From: a virus
Virus record (IMG/VR): IMGVR_UViG_3300006919_000232
Coordinates: 1-32,018 of that record
DNA: 32,018 nt
Reading direction: 5' to 3' (one strand)
In this document: in pieces, positions 3,431 to 5,433 of the stretch
How the letters are laid out: each line of letters starts with the position of its first letter
How positions within the stretch are numbered: the first letter of the stretch is position 1
Translations under genes and position numbers: made by a program
The notes under the pieces: model-generated
Database searches by the model: none
Told to the model about the DNA's origin: nothing
The model's input: only the letters and a program-made list of their open reading frames with translations

Positions 3431-3651
3431 TGTTTAATTGTATTGTAACCTAAAGCATGAATTATCATATCTGTTTTATTCATTTCAGTTTGGGTTGTAT
3501 TAATTTCAGGCTTTTGCCTGTCTATAATTTTTAAGCTCTCCTTCCAATCTTCACTCATAGGTGTAATATTTTTCCAATCTATAGAAGGAATCATTTCTAG
3601 AGCACCTAAAAAATCACCGTTCTTTAATTTTTTTTCATACTCTTCTCTCAT
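3427..3651 (-). CDS. Hypothetical protein between annealing protein and nuclease
   Basis: A 74-aa protein, charged and probably helical at the N-terminus (MREEYEKKLKNGDFLGALEMI). I recognise no family. The gene is coupled on both sides: its ATG overlaps the stop of the annealing-protein gene, and its end overlaps the start of the RecE-like gene by 4 bp. It may be an accessory factor of the recombination module; this is inferred from position only. Confidence 0.6.
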   Translation of the reverse strand: MREEYEKKLKNGDFLGALEMIPSIDWKNITPMSEDWKESLKIIDRQKPEINTTQTEMNKTDMIIHALGYNTIKQ

Positions 3652-4175
3652 TACACGAACTTTTTTAATCCTTCTTTTTGTCTGTCTGTAAGTTCTTCAC
3701 CATACTTAGATAACACATTGTCATATGCTTTCTTCTTGTCAGTTGAAGATTTAATGTAACCTACAGCGCTGTCCATGATGTTAGCTTTAGTTTTTCTCTT
3801 CGGAGTTGATGCTGTTTCTTGCTGATGTATAGCATCTGCAACTTCTCCAGCCGAAGCCATAGAGTCATCTACTCCAATACCCATAACCGCTAATGCTCTA
3901 CCAATAGCTGATGTCTCACAGTTTTCAATGTAAGATGTTTTGTTAATGTTACCATTAGCTTGAATCTCATGAGCATGACCAGTAGATATAACTCTTTGCG
4001 CTGTGTCTGCAACCGTTGCTTTACATACACAATGCTCTGAATCTAGCACCGTGAACTCTGTTGCAATGGTCCAATTTTCGTACTTCTTTTCTTGACGGAA
4101 GTACTTAACTCTTTCTTTTACCTCGACATATTGTTTGCCTCGGATGTTTACTGTTTTGAACTTGTATGTTCCCAT
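3651..4175 (-). CDS. Putative single-strand annealing protein (Rad52/ERF-like)
   Basis: A 174-aa protein. The N-terminal part reads KQYVEVKERVKYFRQEK, then an alternating beta pattern (TIATEFTVLD...CVCKATVAD), then the strongly conserved NKTSYIENCETSAIGRALAV segment (78-97) that marks a widespread phage family of Rad52/ERF-like annealing proteins. The C-terminal third is Lys-rich. It would anneal complementary ssDNA made by the RecE-like nuclease, for recombination or concatemer formation. The TSAIGRAL motif is clear; assignment to annealing activity rests on family memory and the neighbouring nuclease. It could also be a non-catalytic ssDNA binder. Confidence 0.6.
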   Translation of the reverse strand: MGTYKFKTVNIRGKQYVEVKERVKYFRQEKKYENWTIATEFTVLDSEHCVCKATVADTAQRVISTGHAHEIQANGNINKTSYIENCETSAIGRALAVMGIGVDDSMASAGEVADAIHQQETASTPKRKTKANIMDSAVGYIKSSTDKKKAYDNVLSKYGEELTDRQKEGLKKFV

Positions 4176-4670: not shown

Positions 4671-5037
4671 CTATTTGGGCTTTAATAAATTCATGTATTG
4701 AATGGTATTTTGTTAGTACGTTCATCATTTTTGTAGAGGCTAATGCTATTTTTTTAGACTCGTATAAGGTGTCTATTCGTTCTTGTTCCGATCCTAGAAG
4801 CTCATCTATAAGGACTTCACCTGCTTGTTGAGAATCAATTTCATCTATCAAATCTTTAACAGAATCGTTTAATATCTCAGAGAATATTTTTGATATGTCA
4901 ATCGAGTCCCATAATATCCAGTCTTCCAGACCGTAAGCCTCTATATCGTGAACACATAAATCTGCAGCGCAATTTGTGGAATCGTTATTGTCTAGTCTCA
5001 TGGCGTTAACCCATGATAAAGCTTCTTTATCTGTCAT
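4648..5037 (-). CDS. Acidic hypothetical protein
   Basis: A 129-aa protein, strongly acidic and helical (DSIDISKIFSEILNDSVKDLIDEIDSQQAGEVLIDELLG). No family recognised. The start overlaps the stop of the 63-aa upstream gene, so the two are coupled. Small acidic early proteins in phages often act as inhibitors of host nucleic-acid enzymes, but nothing here proves it. Confidence 0.6.
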   Translation of the reverse strand: MTDKEALSWVNAMRLDNNDSTNCAADLCVHDIEAYGLEDWILWDSIDISKIFSEILNDSVKDLIDEIDSQQAGEVLIDELLGSEQERIDTLYESKKIALASTKMMNVLTKYHSIHEFIKAQIDEQDNTY

Positions 5038-5228
5038 TAGAACCCATAGTTTTTACACTCTTTGCGGAATACATCCATAGAGTTTACAAAATTGAAATTC
5101 TTTATAGTGTTTGTCTTGTCGTACCTGTGCTTATCGTAAGCTTCGACAAATAAATTAAGCAAGTGTAAAGCATCAAGATGTTCTGGTGTTAGTTGTCTAG
5201 ATGGATATGTTATATGTTCTTTACTCAT
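5037..5228 (-). CDS. Small hypothetical protein
   Basis: A 63-aa protein (MSKEHITYPSRQLTPEH...) with one likely helix (HLDALHLLNLFVEAYDKHRY). No family recognised. Its ATG overlaps the stop of a 24-residue membrane peptide gene in a TAATG junction, supporting both as real translated genes. Confidence 0.55.
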   Translation of the reverse strand: MSKEHITYPSRQLTPEHLDALHLLNLFVEAYDKHRYDKTNTIKNFNFVNSMDVFRKECKNYGF

Positions 5229-5316: not shown

Positions 5317-5433
5317 TGTGAGTGAGGGGAATCGAACCCCTCTACTAAACCAAATAAAAGCAGTCGGTCATATGATAATAAATCATGCAAAGGACACAAC
5401 CCCTTTACAGGAAGACCGAATCCAGACACTCAC
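5317..5433 (-). ncRNA. tRNA-like RNA: full acceptor and T arm, no normal anticodon arm
   Basis: On the minus strand a 7-bp acceptor stem (GTGAGTG at 5433-5427 with CACTCAC at 5324-5318) closes onto a perfect T arm (AGGGG, loop TTCGATT, CCCCT; 5341-5325), with A5317 as discriminator and no encoded CCA. The interior is 76 nt, too long for a tRNA and without a convincing anticodon loop with U33. It can instead fold as a TCGGTC/GACCGA stem (5419-5414 with 5369-5364) enclosing two small hairpins, plus a CTGCT/AGTAG hairpin (5363-5342). The 5' segment TCTGGATTCG resembles the D-loop segment of tmRNA. It could be a degenerate tRNA, a tmRNA-like RNA or a processing mimic. Confidence 0.6.

Follow-up and report, generated by a model that had tools for sequence, protein, structure and literature searches.

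A tRNA-like RNA in the early genes of marine Bacteroidota phages as a possible mimic of host tRNA-His

What purpose could be served by a short phage RNA that carries the acceptor stem and T arm of a tRNA and has no cloverleaf between them? The question is raised by a virus record of 32,018 nucleotides (hereafter the window, meaning the whole of this stretch of DNA), which derives from a DNA phage encoding a portal and a terminase. Its terminase shows 42–49% identity to the enzymes of an uncultured Manatee Spring podovirus and of Flavobacterium elemo phages. On its minus strand, at 5433..5317, lies a 117-nt element (counting the unpaired 3' base, an A at position 73) whose acceptor (7 bp) and T arm (5 bp) pair without a mismatch. 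A sequence-only reading had reported these seven and five pairs, the T loop TTCGATT and a long interior stem with side hairpins, all of which we find at this place, and had described a structured tRNA-like RNA without a normal cloverleaf. That description is borne out: the fold energy lies 4 SD below that of shuffled sequences (z −4.0; 0/200 shuffles) and, in the window, ARAGORN makes no tRNA call at the RNA and Rfam gives no match to it at the gathering score.

Read from its 5' end, and with every part on the minus strand, the window RNA opens with the acceptor strand GTGAGTG, of tRNA-His type (5427..5433), and a linker, TCTGGAT (5420..5426; TYTGGA in most relatives), that is reminiscent of the D-loop region of tmRNA, which has no stem. 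A stem termed P2, with covariation in both its 5' strand TCGGTC (5414..5419) and its 3' strand GACCGA (5364..5369), encloses hairpin 1 (5387..5408), whose terminal loop holds GUG at 5397–5395, and hairpin 2 (5372..5386), which is found in long forms only and here has the loop UUUAUUA. Between P2 and the T arm (AGGGG-TTCGATT-CCCCT, 5325..5341) stands hairpin 3 (5342..5363), which is D-arm-like, with the loop TTGGTT (5353–5348), and the acceptor is completed by CACTCAC (5318..5324). The same order of acceptor, linker, P2 enclosing hairpin 1 (joined by hairpin 2 in the long forms), hairpin 3 and T arm is kept throughout a family of related RNAs.

The first relatives, L002 and L003, have a shorter interior and occupy the matching spot beside relatives of the upstream GP88 gene in IMG/VR. 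A covariance model, R1, built from these two alone finds the window RNA at 59 bits (E about 2e-12) and recovers the window and several more phages at E values of 1e-7 to 1e-20; the set was completed by pattern scans and by 80 loci around a conserved gene, phrog_11717. The family comprises 19 phage loci with 18 distinct sequences of 94–117 nt, plus one truncated copy (L454), and its carriers are a family of marine Bacteroidota phages. The family model, R2, scores members at 59–112 bits against less than 30 bits for ordinary tRNAs, and the sole ARAGORN calls on members (L323 and L330) are shifted, spurious tRNA-Gln predictions that start 13 nt inside the RNA. No copy was found among 395 Bacteroidota genomes, and pattern matches in GTDB were rejected as bacterial copies since their acceptor stem does not form. 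A mycobacteriophage BLAST match was likewise rejected as a homologue because the matched region overlaps a second copy of the 3' part of a phage tRNA-His; in mycobacteriophage Astraea (L429:958-1540) an intact tRNA-His is followed by a hypothetical gene and then by such a duplicated fragment, an arrangement which suggests that a mobile gene was inserted in the tRNA-His gene.

Several other tRNA-like elements of phages were seen. In a 75-nt RNA (L008:9387-9461 and L175:2785-2859, both plus strand), which lies at an equivalent site upstream of the homologous recombination-type gene, the acceptor is CTCCTGC, one hairpin bears CUGGGA, and the T arm is preceded by a hairpin with a long UUUAAUUGGUUUU loop; this RNA was excluded from the family by its noise-level score of 12–15 bits and its different acceptor, and may be distantly related or may imitate some other tRNA. 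Three elements that ARAGORN does not detect (L136:3874-3950, plus strand; L146:9881-9957 and L166:513-589, minus strand) share AATTGGTTACAT immediately 5' of the T arm, have CTGATAC or CTTATAA as an anticodon-like loop, and could represent tRNA-Ile whose D loop has moved. A 58-nt element (L177:590-647, plus strand; L153:10107-10164, minus strand) consists of the acceptor GAAAGCT, one hairpin with a GTTGGTT loop and a T arm, without an anticodon arm.

The sequence-only reading had proposed looking for covariation among relatives, and compensatory changes are indeed seen in the helices. P2 is nearly wholly different between members with its pairing kept (TAATC/GATTA, AGATC/GATCT, CGGTC/GACCG, AGCATG/CATGCT, GTATGCA/TGCATAC). 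In the family alignment, whose fitting to the model biases the pair and covariation counts towards that model, 93.3% of cells are paired, 16 pairs show double changes, double-changed cells number 67 (20 ± 4 in shuffles, 3–15 with slid partners) and the covariation score is 0.44 against 0.21. The picture is unchanged in the initial, R1-based alignment, and covariation backs every helix. The T loop is of TTCRANY type, its stem being reduced to 4 bp in L003 and a few others. The acceptor behaves differently from the other helices, which drift freely: five of its seven pairs are invariant across the 18 sequences, and it is thus under constraint on sequence, beyond pairing. Such constancy, together with compensatory changes at a level that none of 500 shuffles reaches in either double-changed cells or covariation score, makes it very improbable that the RNA is a functionless, decaying relic of a phage tRNA-His, an idea which its patchy occurrence among relatives would fit.

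The tRNA that is resembled had escaped the earlier reading, which correctly saw a tRNA-like molecule and missed the signs of tRNA-His in the acceptor and the loop triplet. Both acceptor variants of the family, GTGAGTG and GTGAGCG, occur in Bacteroidota tRNA-His, and a pattern of T arm plus CRCTCAC matched 19 genes in the 395 genomes, tRNA-His(GTG) in 19/19, the comparison being with Bacteroidota at large. Within the sampled host tRNAs, mainly of His, Arg, Pro and Glu isotypes, no non-His isotype comes within one base of the acceptor. GUG is the sole triplet common to the hairpin-1 terminal loops of all members, and GUG-R-U, corresponding to tRNA-His positions 34–38, is present in all except the window, where GUG is in register only with a small gap allowed. 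Reading the loop as GAU (Ile) was dropped, there being no GAU in the window or in L010. In L108 and L114, U33-GUG appears in the 7-nt loop of hairpin 2. The loop of hairpin 3, which directly precedes the T arm, carries UUGGUU (AUGGUU in L108 and L114), a motif also present in AGUUGGUUAG, the D loop of host tRNA-His. Judged by sequence, the His-type acceptor, the GUG loop and the D-loop-like hairpin point to tRNA-His; the anticodon match is a single triplet, for which the members are not independent evidence because of their common ancestry, and the His match overall comprises the acceptor and that triplet.

Other features of a tRNA-His are missing. None of the 19 members has G-1 (18 have A at position -1 and one has U) and none has C73, position 73 being A or U in all; the D stem is absent from its usual place; and hairpin 1 does not provide a 7-nt anticodon loop with constant U33, its loops being of 6, 8 or 10 nt with G, A or U before the GUG. 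Because G-1:C73, the usual D stem and a constant U33 are lacking, decoding of His codons is unlikely, and binding by an ordinary bacterial histidyl-tRNA synthetase (HisRS) would be weakened since G-1:C73 is the main HisRS determinant, as established in E. coli (PMC9976931). An odd yet working phage tRNA-His, with a long anticodon arm and displaced D arm, could be charged after addition of G-1 or without it, as in some alpha-Proteobacteria, where tRNA-His has A73 and no G-1; A73 is also found in yeast tRNA-His (PMC9976931). The His-type acceptor, GUG loop and intact T arm would suit such a molecule, as would the general commonness of phage tRNAs and the presence of a tRNA-Arg in the corresponding slot of L300. 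We nevertheless regard it as decidedly unlikely: U33 is not kept in most members, the hairpin-1 loops are of the wrong sizes, Thg1 was not found in 15 RNA-bearing phage records, and host tRNA-His has C73, so that the host HisRS should expect G-1:C73.

A minimal tmRNA, as the sequence-only reading had also entertained, does not survive comparison: the family has no conserved reading frame or resume codon, the Rfam tmRNA match is to the T arm only, and the acceptor is of another type. The frame ending in VVSFA does exist in the window and is unconserved, the same frame in L002 stopping at codon 8. At a permissive threshold RF00023 aligns with 17 nt of the T arm (model positions 347–363) at 11.6 bits, against a cut-off of 47. 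One might still imagine a reduced tmRNA performing ribosome rescue without an mRNA-like part, to which the stemless YUGGA segment and the following P2-like stem, as in tmRNA, would correspond, along with a 10-mer, TCTGGATTCG, common to the RNA and E. coli ssrA. The identity claimed with ssrA is correct for these ten bases, which in ssrA lie 2 nt further in; their ATTCG part occurs only in the window, L108 and L114, and the correspondence is mostly coincidence. With a 17-nt Rfam match, no conserved tag frame, an additional hairpin, hairpin 3, separating P2 from the T arm and an acceptor of His type, not the G3-U70 alanine type, the reduced tmRNA is largely refuted and has the least probability of the explanations considered here. 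The RNA is probably a tRNA mimic and not a short tmRNA, since the His acceptor and anticodon triplet are kept and the parts of a working tRNA are missing.

The location of the RNA bears on a further alternative. In the window it is intergenic, within 7 nt of the stop of an upstream gene of 202 aa (Pfam GP88, PF17338; 5440..6048, minus strand) and followed by a 63-aa gene (5037..5228, minus strand), all being co-oriented early genes. Wherever the flanks are readable, the RNA lies in one early operon, upstream of an exonuclease-like gene and of the conserved 174-aa phrog_11717 gene (3651..4175, minus strand, in the window), which served as a marker for locating the slot in other phages; of the 80 loci so anchored, 13 hold the RNA and most others are without it. 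In L004 and L300 the RNA's site is occupied by an ordinary tRNA-Arg(UCU), which in L300 (1411-1485, plus strand) directly follows GP88, the 63-aa gene being absent too. That gene is present in every RNA-bearing slot locus of testable length and was rejected as a strict partner, as it also occurs without the RNA. None of the window proteins that were scanned was recognised as tRNA-related. The idea that the loop of hairpin 3 pairs with AACCAA in the leaders of genes was dropped, since such sites exceed expectation by little (7 seen, 4 expected).

Such a position, between co-oriented genes and close to the GP88 stop, would suit a cis-acting tRNA-like element, cut by RNase P and 3' tRNA nucleases or bound by HisRS, that separates or regulates early transcripts (GP88 from the 63-aa gene). 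The acceptor–T-arm domain is the basic substrate of RNase P. The thrS operator offers a parallel in principle, tRNA mimicry regulating thrS in E. coli (PMC9976931). However, the neighbouring genes vary among members, as does the distance to the next gene, some relatives lack the RNA despite having the downstream genes, and a plain processing site has no need of a GUG loop or of conservation in the acceptor sequence; we consider the cis element rather unlikely, if less so than a working tRNA-His.

An acceptor fixed at the tRNA-His sequence and a GUG loop, without the features needed for decoding and charging, are most simply accounted for by a mimic that engages a tRNA-His binder. We therefore favour, with moderate confidence, a mimic of tRNA-His, its arms rearranged, that would be processed, would not decode and would engage a host tRNA-His-binding factor. 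This reading builds on what is observed of the RNA: its sequence, conservation, covariation and location, its His-type acceptor and its GUG. The mimic would be transcribed along with the early genes, and its acceptor and T arm should permit maturation by RNase P and by 3' tRNA-processing and CCA-adding enzymes. Its non-cloverleaf order of arms (the acceptor is followed by a long arm with the GUG loop, then by the D-like arm and the T arm) would then present the likeness of tRNA-His to a host factor recognising that tRNA, which the RNA would most likely bind and so occupy or mislead, to the presumed benefit of the phage. Candidate targets are HisRS and a tRNA-His-directed nuclease of a defence system; the offsetting of tRNA-cleaving defences by phage tRNAs is a documented or proposed theme (PMC10264068, PMC11555353). 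The earlier suggestion of a decoy for tRNA enzymes comes close to this reading, whose functional part is inferred. More tentatively, and with appreciable doubt, we propose that these RNAs form a new phage class that imitates one host tRNA, tRNA-His, with its arms reordered, and acts against a host factor that is possibly a tRNA-His-directed defence nuclease or HisRS.

Plant RNA viruses provide documented cases in which one tRNA isotype is imitated. If the present reading is true, DNA phages too mimic one isotype without making a working tRNA, and a D-like arm placed after the anticodon-like arm would measure how much tRNA rearrangement is tolerated with acceptor and elbow kept; the conserved parts of the family (acceptor, GUG loop, D-like hairpin) are separately testable.

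Among known systems, tmRNA (RF00023) shares the acceptor and T arm, the stemless YUGGA segment and a P2-like stem, whereas the phage RNA has no mRNA-like domain and no identified pseudoknots, a His-type acceptor and the extra hairpin 3. Ordinary phage tRNAs, some of which are proposed as countermeasures against anticodon nucleases (PMC10264068, PMC11555353), are likewise phage-borne genes of tRNA type, as the tRNA-Arg in the L300 slot illustrates, but fold as cloverleaves, which the phage RNA does not, ARAGORN being empty at it in the window. Bacteroidota tRNA-His(GTG) has in common with it the acceptor GTGAGYG/CRCTCAC, GUG in a hairpin loop, the UUGGUU loop and the T arm; the phage RNA differs in lacking both G-1:C73 and a D stem that would separate the acceptor from the anticodon arm, in its inconstant U33, in placing its D-like hairpin after the GUG arm and in its length of 94–117 nt. 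The tRNA-like structures of plant viruses (TYMV, BMV and TMV type) are also viral RNAs that imitate a given tRNA, sometimes with a matching anticodon triplet; these structures, which are aminoacylated, end the genomes of RNA viruses at the 3' side and act in genome amplification (PMC9976931), whereas the RNA described here comes from a DNA phage and lies between genes.
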